Positions 31,719-37,803 of a stretch of 64,000 nt of DNA are shown piece by piece. A program made the position numbers and the translations under genes. The stretch's first letter is position 1. Every line of letters starts with the position of its first letter. Below the pieces are notes generated by a model, which did not search any database, had not been told where the DNA came from, and saw nothing but the letters and a program-made list of their open reading frames with translations. Origin of the DNA: Flavobacterium azizsancarii (lineage in GTDB: Bacteria; Bacteroidota; Bacteroidia; Flavobacteriales; Flavobacteriaceae); NCBI RefSeq assembly GCF_027980145.1, contig NZ_JAMZNK010000005.1:1-64000 (forward strand). The letters run 5' to 3'.

Positions 31719-33494
31719 TTAAAATCTATTATTTTGTCTTTCTATTTTCTGAAGTTCCCTTTCATAAAGCAGGACATCTTTCTCGTGTTGTCTTTTGTTT
31801 ATCTCCAGTCTCCTCATTTCCAGGTTCCGTTGTTTCATGCTGGTTTCGTATATTTTAGAATCCTTTCCATATTTTTGTTCCATCTCAATATTGAGCTTGT
31901 CCATATCACTACTAAACTTGTCCATGGCAAGATTGTATTTTGCCATTTCTTTTTCGTACGCAGCTTCTCTTTGCGACATGATTTCTTCTACTTGTTTTTC
32001 GTAAGCTGACATATCAGGCTGAAAAGTTTCCATCTTTTTCAGAAACTCAGCCATTTCTATTTCAAATTTAGCCATTGCTACTTTATCTTTACGATCTGCA
32101 GGCGCTATAGGGGGATTTGGCATTTTAGATATATCAGCATTTGGAGCTTGAGGCATTGGTCCGGTAGGGAAAGCAGGAAGAGCTGGAGGAGTTGGGGACA
32201 CAGGAGAAGCTGGAAGAAGATTAGAACCATTCGTCTGGCTTATTTCTGCAATACGTTTTCTAATAGTCGCTGGTTCATCAATTAAACCATCAGTAAGCAA
32301 ATTAATATTTTTTAAACCATCTTTAGTTGTAACTATAATTCCACAATTTTTAATCGCTTCATCTCCTTCTACCTCAATGCTCTGAGCATTTTCTGTCTCT
32401 TTATTGATATCAACTTTAATAGCTGTTAGCTCATTTTGAGTGTTTCGTTTTACATTTGATACCACCATATCAATATTATGATCTTTCTTTAATTTTTCGG
32501 CCATCTCCTTTAGTTCTTGATCGGTCGTGTTTTTTCGAATTTTTAAAACATAAACCGGAGTTTCATTTTGAGTATTCTCTTTAAGATCTTTTCTCTCTTT
32601 TTCTTGTGCTATTGTCCTGATTTGAAATAAAAGCACAAAAGCTATAAGTACTGGAATAATAGTATAGTATTTCCAGCAATTTCGTTTTTTTGATTGATTT
32701 TTGTTTAACATGACGATTCGTTTTTTGATTAATGATTGATAAAAATGATTGGTGATTGCAACACAACTTTCATGTGTTGTTATTTTTAAAAGCGTGTATT
32801 GGTACGCTTTTTTGTCTGATATTTTCTTCGCAGCTTCATTATCTGCAATGAACTCAAGATTTTGTAAAATCGCTTTTTTGTACATCCAAATTATCGGGTT
32901 GAACCAAAATAGTATACAGAATATTCTTAAAACTAAAACATCTACAGTATGATTTTGATCGCTATGTACTTTTTCGTGTTCGATAATATTTTCTAATTCT
33001 GAGGCCGTAAACATTGATGAGTTGTACACGATATAATCAAAATAAGGAAATGGAGCGATATTTTCTTTAATATCTACGAATTTAAAATCTGCCTGTTGTT
33101 GTACTTTTTTATCTTTTAAAACAGAATTTAAACTATAGAAATCAATAGCAAATTTTACTAATAAGGTTAAAAATCCTATGCTGTAAATGGCTAGTAAAAT
33201 GTAACTCCAATTAATATCGAAAGATTCTATTTCGGCACTGCGATAGAAAGAAATCTGAGATTTGTTTAGAACTGAAATTGCATTTGTATTTAAAATCGAA
33301 ACAGGCGCCGGATCGATCCAGACTATTTTAGTGAAAACTACAAAAGGTAAAATCAATGATGTGAATAAGCCGGCTAATAAAAACCACCTGTTGCTATTGA
33401 AGAAGGTTTCTTTGTCTAATAAAAAATAGTAAGCACAATAAAACAACACTAATAGCGCGCTCGATTTTATGATAAAAATAAAAAGTGCTTCCAT
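31719..33494 (-). CDS. M56-family membrane protease with Pro-rich stalk and coiled coil
   Basis: 591 residues related to BlaR1/MecR1 sensors. Three helices lie before the catalytic loop (about 8-28, 38-58, 97-120). HEKVH at 173-177 and E214 in LEFIADNEA give the zinc site facing the cytoplasm. A fourth helix (about 273-292) precedes a periplasmic region (300-425) that is shared with the neighbouring paralog. From 426 to 465 the chain is proline-rich, then 470-591 is a long charged coiled coil. There is no penicillin-binding domain, so this is not a beta-lactam sensor in the classic sense. It is the last gene of blaI-M56-M56, with a terminator downstream. Confidence 0.85.
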   Translation of the reverse strand: MEALFIFIIKSSALLVLFYCAYYFLLDKETFFNSNRWFLLAGLFTSLILPFVVFTKIVWIDPAPVSILNTNAISVLNKSQISFYRSAEIESFDINWSYILLAIYSIGFLTLLVKFAIDFYSLNSVLKDKKVQQQADFKFVDIKENIAPFPYFDYIVYNSSMFTASELENIIEHEKVHSDQNHTVDVLVLRIFCILFWFNPIIWMYKKAILQNLEFIADNEAAKKISDKKAYQYTLLKITTHESCVAITNHFYQSLIKKRIVMLNKNQSKKRNCWKYYTIIPVLIAFVLLFQIRTIAQEKERKDLKENTQNETPVYVLKIRKNTTDQELKEMAEKLKKDHNIDMVVSNVKRNTQNELTAIKVDINKETENAQSIEVEGDEAIKNCGIIVTTKDGLKNINLLTDGLIDEPATIRKRIAEISQTNGSNLLPASPVSPTPPALPAFPTGPMPQAPNADISKMPNPPIAPADRKDKVAMAKFEIEMAEFLKKMETFQPDMSAYEKQVEEIMSQREAAYEKEMAKYNLAMDKFSSDMDKLNIEMEQKYGKDSKIYETSMKQRNLEMRRLEINKRQHEKDVLLYERELQKIERQNNRF

Positions 33495-33563
33495 AAAAAT
33501 TGGATTATTTCTTCTTCTATAATTGGTTATTTACCGTGTGATCCGGATTTTTTTAAACTGAAA

Positions 33564-35207
33564 CTATTTTCTGGTTTCAATTATAATAACGCCATTTTTT
33601 CCTTGTTCGCCATACTTTACAATTGCGTCAATTCCTTTATAAATTTCCATGCTTTTTATATTTAGCTCCTGAAGATCGTCAGTTGTTACTTTTTCATTAA
33701 TAACGACACCATCTACAATTACTAATTGATCTAAATTTTTCTGAGACCCTGATTTTTTAGAAGATATCTTAACTGTAGTTCCTGATTTAGCATCATCATT
33801 CACATTTACAGTGACTGAACTATCGACATTTGTACTTACATCAGTATTTACATTAGTTGTACTAGTGTTTGCACTAACATTTTTATTAGTATTAGAATTA
33901 GCTTTAACATTGTTATCAGAATTAGAATTGGTTTTTGTAGTGGTTGAATTAGTGTTATCGCTTGTGTTTACAACATTTTTCAGGTTTTTGCGAGCAACAA
34001 TTTTTTGATCTTTATCTGTTTCATCAGCCGTACGAATACCTACTTTTTTGCTGCCATCGTTGTCTGTTGTAACAATTATTCCAAAATCCTGGATCGTTTT
34101 ATTTCCTCCAGTCTGAATAGATTGTGTTTGCTGATTTCCGTTTTTGATATCAATTTTAAGTGATGTTAAATCGCTTAAAGAATTTCTCTTAATTTCAGAA
34201 GCTTCAAAGTCAACATTATGAATTGTTTTTAATTTCTCTTTGATTTCTTTTAATTCAGCATCGGTAGAATTCTTTTTGATTTTATAAACGTCCACAGATT
34301 TAATTTTTCCAGAAAGCTCTTTTATAATTTGCTGTCTCTCTTTTGCAATAACTTCAATTTGAAATAAAAGTACAAAAGCTGCAAGTGCTGGAATTACAAC
34401 ACAAAATTTCCATGAATTTCTCTTTTTTGATTGATTTTTGTTTAACATAATGATTCGTTTTTTGATTAATGATTGATAAAAATGATTGGTAATGGCAACA
34501 CAGTTTTCATGTGTTGTTATTTTTAAAAGCGTGTATTGATATGCTTTTTTATCGGATATTTTTTGTGCAGCTTCATTATCTGCAATGAATTCAAGATTTT
34601 GCAGGATCGCTTTTTTGTAAAGCCAAACTATAGGATTAAACCAGAATAAGACACAAAAGATTCTTGATATTAACACGTCGATAGTATGATTTTGCTCACT
34701 ATGCACTTTTTCATGTTCAATAATACTTTCTAATTCTATTGCAGTATACAGTGATGAGTTGTACACGATATAGTCGAAATAAGAAAAAGGCGCAATATTT
34801 TGATTTGTATCAATGAATTTAAAATCAGCTTGTTGTTTTACTTTTTTACCTTTTAAAACAGTATTTAAACTATAGAAATCGATAGCGAATTTTATTAATA
34901 ACGCGAGGAATCCAATACTGTAAAGGGAAAGCAAAACTACATTGAGATTAATTTGCAAAACACTATTTTCAATATTTTGCACTTCATTAATTTCAGAAAA
35001 GTTTATATTGGAAATTGGAGCAGGAGCAACCCAGACAATTTTAGTATAAACTATGAATGGTAAGATTATCGAAGTAAATAAACCGGACAATAAAAACCAT
35101 CTGTTATTATTGAAAAAAGTCTCTTTGCGCAATAAAAAATAATAAGCGCAATAAAACAAAGCCAGTAATGCACTTGATTTTCCGATAAATATGAAAAGTG
35201 TTTCCAT
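33564..35207 (-). CDS. M56-family membrane protease with TonB-plug-like C terminus
   Basis: 547 residues, paralog of the following M56 gene. HEKVH at 165-169 and E206 in LEFIADNEA form the zinc site; four helices frame it, the last near 273-292. The shared periplasmic domain (300-390) reads KIKKNSTDAELKEIKEKL ... GIIVTTDNDGSKKVG. A linker of about 70 residues made almost wholly of Asn, Thr, Ser, Val and Lys follows. The last 57 residues (about 490-547) resemble the plug domain of SusC-type receptors: VIVDGVVI, then ELNIKSMEIYKGIDAIVKYG, then GKNGVIIIETRK. No penicillin-binding domain. Only 6 bp separate it from blaI, so they are one operon. Confidence 0.87.
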   Translation of the reverse strand: METLFIFIGKSSALLALFYCAYYFLLRKETFFNNNRWFLLSGLFTSIILPFIVYTKIVWVAPAPISNINFSEINEVQNIENSVLQINLNVVLLSLYSIGFLALLIKFAIDFYSLNTVLKGKKVKQQADFKFIDTNQNIAPFSYFDYIVYNSSLYTAIELESIIEHEKVHSEQNHTIDVLISRIFCVLFWFNPIVWLYKKAILQNLEFIADNEAAQKISDKKAYQYTLLKITTHENCVAITNHFYQSLIKKRIIMLNKNQSKKRNSWKFCVVIPALAAFVLLFQIEVIAKERQQIIKELSGKIKSVDVYKIKKNSTDAELKEIKEKLKTIHNVDFEASEIKRNSLSDLTSLKIDIKNGNQQTQSIQTGGNKTIQDFGIIVTTDNDGSKKVGIRTADETDKDQKIVARKNLKNVVNTSDNTNSTTTKTNSNSDNNVKANSNTNKNVSANTSTTNVNTDVSTNVDSSVTVNVNDDAKSGTTVKISSKKSGSQKNLDQLVIVDGVVINEKVTTDDLQELNIKSMEIYKGIDAIVKYGEQGKNGVIIIETRK

Positions 35208-35213
35208 AAGGGA

Positions 35214-35582
35214 TTATTTTTCTTCGTTAGGATTTTCAATCATGGCCAGGATTTCACGTAATTCGGCTGCTGAAATTTTTTCTTCTTTAGCAAAAAATGA
35301 AACCATGTTTTTATATGAGCTATTAAAATAGTTATCAATGGCAGTATTCATATATTTTTTGCTGTAAGCCTCCAATGTTATTACAGGATAATACTGGTGC
35401 GTGTTTCCAAAAGCGTTATGAGCAACAAAACCTTTTTCTTCAAGATTACGCACAATAGTCGAAAGTGTATTATAATGTGGCTGGTCTTCAGTGATTTCTG
35501 CCTGAATTTCTTTTACGAATGCTTTTTTGAGCTTCCATAAAATCTGCATGATTTCCTCTTCTTTGTTTGTTAACTTTTGCAT
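35214..35582 (-). CDS. BlaI/MecI/CopY-family repressor
   Basis: A winged-helix repressor that should be cleaved or released after signalling by an M56 protease. The ATG at 35582 gives MQKLTNKEEEIMQILWKLKKAF and a 122-residue protein of usual size; an ATG 16 codons earlier lies inside the operator and is rejected. ITEDQPHYNTLSTIVRNLEEKGFVAH is the recognition-wing region, and the C-terminal half is the dimerisation helix. Two dyads overlap its promoter, which implies autoregulation. First gene of the blaI-M56-M56 operon. Confidence 0.9.
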   Translation of the reverse strand: MQKLTNKEEEIMQILWKLKKAFVKEIQAEITEDQPHYNTLSTIVRNLEEKGFVAHNAFGNTHQYYPVITLEAYSKKYMNTAIDNYFNSSYKNMVSFFAKEEKISAAELREILAMIENPNEEK

Positions 35583-35599: not shown

Positions 35600-35643
35600 C
35601 AAACGTACAACTATATTTATAGTTACGCAACTATAAATATAGT
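35600..35643 (-). promoter_or_regulatory. Promoter with twin BlaI-type operators
   Basis: On the minus strand TACGTTTG (35607-35600) fits the -7 consensus and TTG at 35630-35628 fits the -33 box, with 20 bp between. Two 14-bp dyads, ACTATATTTATAGT (35610-35623) and ACTATAAATATAGT (35630-35643), overlap these elements. Their centres are 20 bp apart, about two helical turns, so two repressor dimers would bind the same face. They have the ACTATA-NN-TATAGT form, a reasonable BlaI/CopY-type site. Confidence 0.75.
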
Positions 35644-35738
35644 TATTTAACTAAAAAAGACGTTTGGTCTGATTTTAAAGTATAGAAAATAGTGCTTTAG
35701 CCTTGTAAATCCGGAGGTTGAAATAGGAGTGAAAAAAA

Positions 35739-35888: not shown

Positions 35889-37106
35889 TTAAGAGATTTT
35901 TTCTCTGAGCAATTCTTTTTTGATCCAAAAGCAACACAGCGTTGCAATAACTCCAATGCAGGCCATAAAAAGCCAATTGATTTGGTAACCTAATCGAGAG
36001 ATAATCTCGAAACCAACTTTAGAACTAATAATATGTGCTAAACTAAAACTCATTGTATAAAGCGCCATATAACGTCCTTCCTGTCCACGTGGCGCACGGC
36101 TTAATGCAAAAGCATTAGAAAACGGAAAAGTCAGGATCTCTCCAATCGAGATACAAATCATACTAATAACAAGAATTCCGGCCCAAACATTTATTAATAA
36201 TAAAAAGAAGCTCGAAGCCATAACAAAAGACCCCAGAATAATTATTCTTATTTTAGGAAAACCTTTTCTCTCCATATAACCAACTGTTGGCATTTCGAGA
36301 GCAAATATTAAAAGTCCGTTTAAAGTCATCAATAAACCCGTTTGAAATTCGGTTAAGCCAAATTTTTCATTGTGATATAAAGGTAACGTAGTAAAAAGCT
36401 GAAAGAAAATCATAGCCGTCACAAAACTCACGAATAAGAAAACCCAAAAGATTTTATCATGAAAAACTGATTTTATATCTGCTGCACTTTCCGCTTTATC
36501 TTCATGCACCGTTTTTTTCTTCTCCTTAACTAATAAGGCAAAAATCGAAATCGAAACAATACACGATGCACCATCAATCCAGAACAATCCTGAATATCCA
36601 ATTCCCATAATAATTAAACCTCCTAAAGCAGGTCCTGCAGCAAAACCCAGATTTACCGCTAAACGTACCAAAGTCAAAGCACGGGTTCTGTTTTCGGGTT
36701 TTGCATACGCACCCAAAGAAACAAACATCGCCGGCCTGAACATATCTGCAATAGTCATTAAACAAAACATTGCGAAACATAAAGTCCAAAAAGTAGTGAT
36801 ATATTGAATAAAGAAAAGTGAAACTCCGCTCGTAAACAAACTAAAAATCATGATTTTATAAAAACCAATTTTATCAGATAATTTTCCACCCAGCCACGAA
36901 CCTAACATTGACCCAAGACCAAACGCAACCATAATCCAACCAACTTGATTATAAGTAAAATGAAGGTCTTCTTTTAAATATTTTGACAGAAAAGGAAGTA
37001 CCATCGTTCCGGCACGATTTATAAATGTAACAATTGCGAGTATCCAAATTTCTCTTGAAAATCCTTTAAAATTATTGATATAGTGACTAAAAGCGGTTTT
37101 GAGCAT
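35889..37106 (-). CDS. MFS multidrug-type efflux transporter
   Basis: ATG at 37106 (MLKTAFSHYINNFKGFSREIW) gives 405 residues with 12 spans; upstream in-frame starts would add a basic tail overlapping the divergent promoter and are not preferred. GWIMVAFGLGSMLGSWLGGKLSDKIGFYK is the classic MFS loop 2-3 motif, and the conserved RALTLVRLAVNLGFAAGPALGGLI segment (motif C) marks an exporter of the DHA1 type. Substrate unknown. It is divergent from a DUF1684 gene, separated by 97 bp. Confidence 0.86.
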   Translation of the reverse strand: MLKTAFSHYINNFKGFSREIWILAIVTFINRAGTMVLPFLSKYLKEDLHFTYNQVGWIMVAFGLGSMLGSWLGGKLSDKIGFYKIMIFSLFTSGVSLFFIQYITTFWTLCFAMFCLMTIADMFRPAMFVSLGAYAKPENRTRALTLVRLAVNLGFAAGPALGGLIIMGIGYSGLFWIDGASCIVSISIFALLVKEKKKTVHEDKAESAADIKSVFHDKIFWVFLFVSFVTAMIFFQLFTTLPLYHNEKFGLTEFQTGLLMTLNGLLIFALEMPTVGYMERKGFPKIRIIILGSFVMASSFFLLLINVWAGILVISMICISIGEILTFPFSNAFALSRAPRGQEGRYMALYTMSFSLAHIISSKVGFEIISRLGYQINWLFMACIGVIATLCCFWIKKELLREKIS

Positions 37107-37203
37107 TACAAATATGTTATTTGCAACAAAGTTAAGAAACTTTGTAGAGATCATCCGTTGCTGCTTTGTTACTTTTAAACTATTTTTGCTCAAAATTTCG
37201 AAG

Positions 37204-37803
37204 ATGAAAAATGTTATTGCTTTTCTTGTATTGTTACTTGTAAATTTCTGTTTTGGCCAGAATAAATTTGATCAGAAAGAAACTGAAAAATTTCAAAAGA
37301 AGATAAACTCAGAATATGCTGATCCTAAAGAAAGTCCGTTAATGGAAGAAGATTTAAAAACTTTTAAATCGCTGGATTTTTTTCCTGTAAATTCCAACTA
37401 CTTCGTGAATGCAAAATTTGAAAAGGCAAAGGACGAAAAGGTTTTTGAAATGAAAACTACAGGAACGAGAACACCAAAATATATAAAATACGGAACTTTG
37501 TATTTTACGATAGATGGTGTTGCTCTTAAACTGAATGTCTATAGAAATATTGAGCTTTCGAAAAAGAAAGAATATAAAGATCATTTGTTCCTTCCTTTCT
37601 CAGATTTAACCAGTGGTAAGGAAAGTTATATTGGAGGAAGATATATCGATTTGAAAATACCGAAAGGGAATACGATCGCAGTCGATTTTAATCAGGCGTA
37701 CAATCCGTATTGTGCTTATAATCATAAATATTCATGTCCTTTAGTTCCTTTAGAAAATGATTTGAGTGTAGCAATTAATGCAGGTGTAAAAACATTTCAC
37801 TAA
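37204..37803 (+). CDS. DUF1684-family exported protein
   Basis: 199 residues starting at ATG 37204 with a signal peptide (MKNVIAFLVLLLVNFCFGQ). The family core is at the C-terminal half: YGTLYFTIDGVALKLNVYRN, LFLPFSDLTSGKESYIGGRYIDL, and NQAYNPYCAYNHKYSCPLVPLENDLSVAINAGVKTF. The end block with its cysteines and PYCAYN is the DUF1684 signature. The function is not known. The stop codon overlaps the start of the next gene (TAATG), so translation is coupled to the TatD-family gene. Confidence 0.88.
   Translation: MKNVIAFLVLLLVNFCFGQNKFDQKETEKFQKKINSEYADPKESPLMEEDLKTFKSLDFFPVNSNYFVNAKFEKAKDEKVFEMKTTGTRTPKYIKYGTLYFTIDGVALKLNVYRNIELSKKKEYKDHLFLPFSDLTSGKESYIGGRYIDLKIPKGNTIAVDFNQAYNPYCAYNHKYSCPLVPLENDLSVAINAGVKTFH

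Follow-up and report, generated by a model that had tools for sequence, protein, structure and literature searches.

A probable BlaI–M56 protease operon without penicillin-binding tails in Flavobacterium azizsancarii

We analyzed positions 1 to 64,000 (hereafter the window) of contig NZ_JAMZNK010000005.1 (C123) from the 5.84-Mb genome of Flavobacterium azizsancarii, which contain on the minus strand a BlaI-family repressor gene (35214–35582; 122 residues from its ATG) followed by genes for two M56 membrane zinc proteases, M56-A (33564–35207; 547 residues) and M56-B (31719–33494; 591 residues). The genes are separated by 6 and 69 bp and likely form one operon. Coordinates and Pfam domains agree with the cluster as described in the initial annotation: Penicillinase_R (PF03965) matches the repressor with an E-value of 8e-30 (103.9 bits against a cut-off of 22.6), and Peptidase_M56 matches M56-A and M56-B with E 8e-14 and 5e-13 (52 and 49.3 bits against a cut-off of 31). 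Beyond the protease, M56-A consists of a domain that we call S, an Asn/Thr/Ser-rich linker and a half plug, and M56-B of an S domain, a proline-rich stalk and predicted long helices. The mechanically called BlaI reading frame begins at a TTG at 35630; as this codon falls inside the operator described below, the ATG start is favoured. The nearest named relatives of both proteases are from Flavobacterium (among the best 120 of 181 matches for one and the best 120 of 348 for the other); those of M56-A include a protein from F. johnsoniae.

The cluster resembles the BlaR1–BlaI and MecR1–MecI systems of staphylococci in that an M56 gluzincin (HExxH...ExxxD), alignable over the whole membrane part, is encoded beside a winged-helix repressor of the same family, and in the presence of Phe at both predicted P1' positions. 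In M56-A the HEKVH motif (residues 165–169; 34701–34715, minus strand, as are all protease features given here) aligns to H201EXXH of BlaR1, and EFIAD (residues 206–210; 34578–34592) is the counterpart of E242XXXD; the HEKVH of M56-B occupies residues 173–177 (32964–32978). As was first noted from the sequence, both proteases also keep a downstream glutamate, 37 residues past the second His, and all 94 of the proteases compared, which make up 47 A/B pairs including that of the window, retain this HExxH-37-E arrangement. A core profile built from 13 protease domains aligns over positions 1–282 to residues 1–322 of the S. aureus BlaR1 chain (E 9e-8), matching H201/E202/H205, E242, D246, Y261, F284 and R294. 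Thus M56-A residues H165, E166, H169, E206, D210, Y223 and R251 correspond to the zinc ligands, general base, Asp246, Tyr261 and Arg294 of BlaR1, which, with Asp210 and His231, are given as active-site residues in the consulted part of the BlaR1 report (PMC9834060). Unlike BlaR1, the window proteases have His in place of Asp210 and Trp in place of His231; these residues (His174 and Trp195 of M56-A) are invariant in 50 aligned A-type proteins, and the same residues stand at the matching places in 48 B-type proteins.

The same part of that report places BlaR1 self-cleavage at Ser283-Phe284 and the S. aureus BlaI cut at Asn101-Phe102 (PMC9834060). The former aligns with His242-Phe243 (TNHF) of M56-A, whose Phe is kept in 50/50 A-type and 48/48 B-type proteins. 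The latter, by alignment to MecI/BlaI structures, falls on Phe96-Phe97 (MVSFF) of the window repressor; across 51 two-BlaI operons the P1' Phe is present in 102/102 copies and the P1 Phe in 101/102. By analogy, we infer that cleavage of BlaI would separate the adjacent Phe residues in MVSFF, and that each protease would cleave itself on the N-terminal side of the TNHF Phe. The repressor also shares its family with CopY-type and other BlaI-family repressors that operate without a protease (CopY model E 9e-10, 38.9 of 122 bits); unlike the CopY type, however, the window BlaI is directly followed by two M56 proteases.

Immediately upstream of blaI lie two perfect 16-bp palindromes (AACTA-N6-TAGTT): the proximal AACTATATTTATAGTT at 35609–35624, which is within the promoter spacer, and AACTATAAATATAGTT at 35629–35644, 20 bp away start to start. 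A degenerate third palindrome (35649–35664) has two mismatches within the tandem pattern, and some relatives have three exact dyads. The predicted promoter, on the minus strand, comprises a -7 element, TACGTTTG (35600–35607; consensus TAnnTTTG), and a -33 TTG (35628–35630) 20 nt upstream of it. The -7 consensus is that of Bacteroides; it has also been confirmed for F. johnsoniae, in which no -33 motif was identified (PMC7366714). The tandem palindromes and the promoter, both recognized from sequence, were overlooked in the initial annotation and are new here. We compared 77 BlaI upstream regions, those of the window and of 76 named Flavobacterium loci taken from the best 80 of at least 549 candidates. 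TAnnTTTG occurs 8–45 nt ahead of the BlaI start in 74 of them (against 2.4% of shuffled stretches), with a TTG 19–20 nt before it in 71; the -7 element starts 2 nt past the inner palindrome in 73, and TTG, inner palindrome and -7 element are contiguous in 70. An exact tandem pair is present in 72 of the 77 and at least one exact palindrome in all. Because the inner palindrome fills the promoter spacer, bound BlaI would sit between the two promoter elements, as expected of a palindromic operator that overlaps its own promoter, and we regard it as a putative BlaI site. The chassis of repressor, operator over promoter, protease and predicted cuts is well supported by these sequence comparisons. 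Separately, at L089 (5876 and 7872) a perfect operator-type palindrome lies inside the BlaI reading frame, as is seen in several relatives.

The tandem operator mostly follows the repressor across the genus. With the pattern AACTA-N6-TAGTT-N4-AACTA-N6-TAGTT and at most one mismatch, it was found in 110 of 150 Flavobacterium genomes, with no match for a reversed-pattern control. A BlaI domain was matched in 121 of the 150, and the operator is present in 109 of these 121 versus 1 of the 29 without a match; that lone genome (G049) is 60% complete, and its site lies near a contig end beside a gene for a major facilitator superfamily (MFS) transporter. Among the listed sites, 108 clusters in 101 genomes, 97 are directly upstream of a listed BlaI and three more proved to be at BlaI once the DNA was read (G151, G088 and G075). 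Four lie near contig ends, one in G063 and three (G017, G046 and G049) next to genes that belong to the MFS neighbourhood; another four precede genes other than BlaI. Across the order, the tandem operator occurs in 22 of 196 genomes and 6 of 72 genera; among those read outside Flavobacterium, L224, L241 and L243 are BlaI–M56 loci, and L223 and L242 are not visibly so. Whether the operon recurs elsewhere had been left as a check, and it does: BlaI–M56 is carried by the 76 named Flavobacterium loci and by the three loci of other genera.

In the genome of the window, no second tandem operator was found within three mismatches; the BlaI site alone was returned, in two overlapping placements, and the reversed control gave three chance matches at this setting. 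An exact single AACTA-W6-TAGTT occurs at two other places, one of which falls inside a reading frame while the other directly adjoins the start codon of a protein that begins like a signal peptide, and two single sites with one mismatch are not positioned like promoters. A wider regulon in this genome was considered and rejected, the single palindromes being taken as chance and no second tandem site having been found within that limit. The tailed proteases are thus the only output with a tandem operator found in this genome.

Two relatives, G126 and G048, have the tandem operator and the same promoter architecture 30–40 bp before a gene for a 468-residue PF00144 serine hydrolase of the beta-lactamase superfamily (L166:1387–2861 and L203:2937–4418; E 4e-56 and 2e-56; 58% identical to each other). 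These genes argue for a rival explanation, in which the switch still answers beta-lactams or peptidoglycan damage, on a signal from another periplasmic protein or a muropeptide, and controls wall enzymes; there is a precedent in Bacillus licheniformis, where, according to the consulted part of the source, a peptidoglycan fragment triggers beta-lactam resistance (PMC3305447). However, neither window protease has a transpeptidase or beta-lactamase domain by Pfam or NCBIfam, and both hydrolases fall far under the NCBIfam cut-offs for class C beta-lactamase (86 and 98 of 415 bits), AmpH, D-aminopeptidase and PBP4B among the best 25 of 47–48 models listed. A third orthologue (L209, in G083) has no tandem site, and the window genome, with no second tandem site, also has no hydrolase homologue at E 1e-60. 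We therefore consider this explanation decidedly unlikely. In G138, two tandem sites stand before groups of GLPGLI genes and are without the promoter motif, making these genes weak candidates as targets; the PF00144 and GLPGLI sites together nevertheless keep a wall- or beta-lactam-linked reading alive. The two GLPGLI clusters span L201:2723–5496 and L202:2921–6001, and one includes a carboxypeptidase-regulatory-like protein.

BlaR1 and MecR1 sensors carry a penicillin-binding tail after the membrane part. The window proteases differ from them in being without this class D-like sensor and in having instead S with a half plug or with a stalk and coil; there are also two proteases in the operon and no resistance gene, as neither a beta-lactamase nor a PBP2a gene is present in it. 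No penicillin-binding domain was matched by Pfam at E 0.01 in the 50 A-type or 48 B-type proteins, and the BlaR1 equivalog model scores 38.4 and 32.9 of 400 bits on M56-A and M56-B, in keeping with the original proposal that the tails are not penicillin sensors. The S domain, predicted to be alpha/beta in M56-A, spans residues about 301–395 there (34023–34307; block-mean predicted local distance difference test (pLDDT) score 79–90 over 301–390) and residues 307–414 in M56-B (32253–32576). Profiles of the two segments (about 300–400 in A and about 307–414 in B) find each other with E 4e-34 and 1e-35, so the periplasmic segment said at the outset to be common to both is indeed shared. Downstream of S the proteases diverge, also as first described. 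M56-A continues with a low-complexity Asn/Thr/Ser-rich linker of mostly low pLDDT (residues 396–489; 33741–34022) and ends in a SusC-type half plug (residues 490–547; 33567–33740). M56-B continues with a proline-rich stalk (residues 426–465; 32100–32219), whose prolines are invariant in the 48 aligned proteins, as are residues of the coil; the initial annotation had the stalk right, and its coiled coil appears in structure prediction as long helices (residues 471–590; 31725–32084).

The plug-like end of M56-A is recognizable by both sequence and fold as the C-terminal half of a plug. Its last ~60 residues match that part of the plugs of SusC/RagA TonB-dependent transporters (VDG...YG...GVI.I.TK), and the A-family profile retrieves SusC/RagA among solved structures (E 3e-6 to 2e-5). 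The NCBIfam SusC signature TIGR04057 matches M56-A with E 7e-5, under its cut-off; Pfam Plug matches 21 of the 50 aligned A-type proteins, M56-A itself not being among them, and the plug glycines are invariant in all 50. Unlike SusC/RagA, M56-A has no barrel, no N-terminal plug half and no recognized TonB box, and its half plug is joined to an inner-membrane protease; whereas TonB-dependent receptors combine a plug with a 22-strand barrel, this 547-residue protein has the half plug only. Database entries named 'M56 family metallopeptidase' or 'TonB-dependent receptor plug domain-containing protein' represent the same protein family, known from annotation only. This homology raises the possibility that M56-A is a receptor-plug mimic, competing with SusC-type receptors for a plug-binding partner such as the TonB machinery, the beta-barrel assembly machinery or a periplasmic chaperone and so counting unassembled or idle receptors. 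A protein search also matches eight open frames of 1000–1085 residues in the window's own genome, where the protease of a second BlaI–M56 pair ends in TonB_C and thus represents the other partner in this machinery. On the other hand, only the C-terminal ~60 plug residues are present, no TonB box was found in M56-A, and the coil protease stands alone in 19 of the 76 named loci. Half plugs also exist as repeats and in small free proteins, and the module may therefore be a general binding fold; on balance a plug mimic seems rather unlikely. Among such proteins, one of 106 residues in the same genome (C101; L040:849–1169) begins like a signal peptide, contains a single half plug (E 9e-7 to Pfam Plug) and adjoins a 260-residue reading frame with a half plug at its own end. 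Behind a BlaI–M56 pair from a different family within the order lies a free protein containing three half-plug repeats (L054:3154–4053).

The operon varies among relatives. At 42 of the 76 named loci the order is BlaI, M56-S-plug, BlaI, M56-S-coil; 19 have BlaI followed by M56-S-coil, and the remaining 15 are variants. BlaI is ahead of M56 in the window and at all 76 loci, with a shortened M56 frame at L117. The second BlaI of most named relatives, which was overlooked initially, is absent between the proteases of the window, as at L117. The description of the two proteases as near-twins holds for residues 1–416, where they are 66% identical, but in a tree they separate into an A clade and a B clade, with 2 label changes where shuffling gives a mean of 32, and are an old, maintained pair. 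Gene conversion was rejected as the source of their likeness, since A is nearest to its own B in 0 of 47 pairs and the tree has so few label changes; in each of ten stretches, A matches its own B and the B proteins of other genomes with identities that differ by no more than 0.013. The two BlaI copies do mix in their tree (14 label changes). These comparisons bear on a further alternative, in which the tails are mainly assembly devices that dimerize through S and the coil, and the protease answers a membrane-internal or cytoplasmic cue. In its favour, A and B have S in common, and relatives differ greatly in their tail ends but not in the protease and operator, which are conserved. However, tails of the same class are conserved too (invariant prolines and coil residues across 48 proteins, invariant plug glycines across 50) and A and B remained separate clades, which suggests tail-specific work and makes this alternative very unlikely. 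L121 and L122 also encode the last membrane helix, S and a half plug with no protease domain; such a membrane-anchored protein lies inside the operon at L041:3019–3678 and L122:7647–8468.

The S-coil module is also found free of the protease. L050 encodes a predicted secreted S-plus-coil protein of 307 residues, and a search with it returned 392 proteins at E 0.001, with lengths of 280–325 residues among the best 120. The 150 Flavobacterium genomes yield 26 matches that stand free of the protease, counting those that cover at least 250 residues in an open frame of at most 370; five of them carry a flag for a single stop within the match. Fifteen of the 26 genes lie less than 4 kb downstream of BlaI on the same strand. 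From the other 11, nine loci were fetched and seven (L173, L182, L183, L189, L190, L191 and L192) adjoin the MFS gene found ahead of BlaI in other genomes, and no BlaI–M56 intervenes. Five of these seven genomes have no BlaI match, G052 has a weak one (E 3e-4) and G079 has BlaI at an unlisted place; the S-coil protein can therefore outlive the switch, and this hints that it serves as an output or partner of the system. The further BlaI–M56 pair of the window genome (C78; L003:599–2457) has a protease that ends in TonB_C (E 1e-11), and the DNA upstream of it contains no AACTA-N6-TAGTT palindrome within two mismatches.

Taken together, the chances seem to us about even that this is a BlaR1-type repressor–protease switch that reads the state of the envelope through swapped tails. 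In such a switch, BlaI would hold the cluster's own promoter shut from the two tandem palindromes, and A and B, or a free S-coil partner, would associate through their S domains. A, with its half plug, and B, with its stalk and coil, would project into the periplasm and engage a partner in the envelope; when this contact is lost or gained the tail would move and free the protease site, as is proposed for acylation in BlaR1, and the freed proteases would cut BlaI, so that the operon is made in larger amount. The weak point of this reading is the signal, which, unlike the chassis, is not well supported by sequence. The original proposal, that envelope stress acts through the tails to release BlaI, thus stands for its chassis and much less firmly for its signal. 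The TonB_C sister system, the free S-coil protein and the tail modules, of which the recognizable ones are of outer-membrane or periplasmic type, nonetheless favour an envelope-state signal. We think it unlikely that the tails go further and form an outer-membrane inventory sensor, in which A carries a SusC-plug decoy and B a periplasm-spanning rod that pairs with the free S-coil protein, and displacement of receptors or of the partner of the rod leads to BlaI cutting and renewed synthesis of the sensor, together with that of a wall-type serine hydrolase in certain species; if true, such a sensor would sit on the methicillin-resistance chassis.

Direct cutting of a repressor by a BlaR1-type protease is known chiefly as a beta-lactam switch. 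The locus described here is probably a variant of the resistance switch of methicillin-resistant S. aureus that senses something other than penicillin, with a conserved BlaR1-type arrangement, no penicillin sensor, a defined operator and promoter, predicted cuts and exchangeable periplasmic tails. Should its tails prove to read the outer membrane, the locus would represent a Bacteroidota envelope-stress pathway unlike the sigma-E and Cpx pathways. Literature searches, which left most subscription papers outside their scope, found no functional study of a Bacteroidota BlaI–M56 system. Two published observations, taken from the consulted parts of their sources and not used as evidence here, are a 3.09-fold increase of a BlaI-family gene in a lipopolysaccharide mutant of Riemerella anatipestifer (PMC5294843) and the listing of a P. 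gingivalis BlaI gene next to one for an M56 protein in work on hemin (PMC10470040).

Upstream of the operon, the window encodes an MFS transporter and a divergent protein of ~200 residues (35889–37803). The MFS gene is also ahead of BlaI–M56 in relatives, at 15 of 16 loci from other Flavobacterium genomes (L225–L240), and the location of BlaI–M56 is therefore syntenic.

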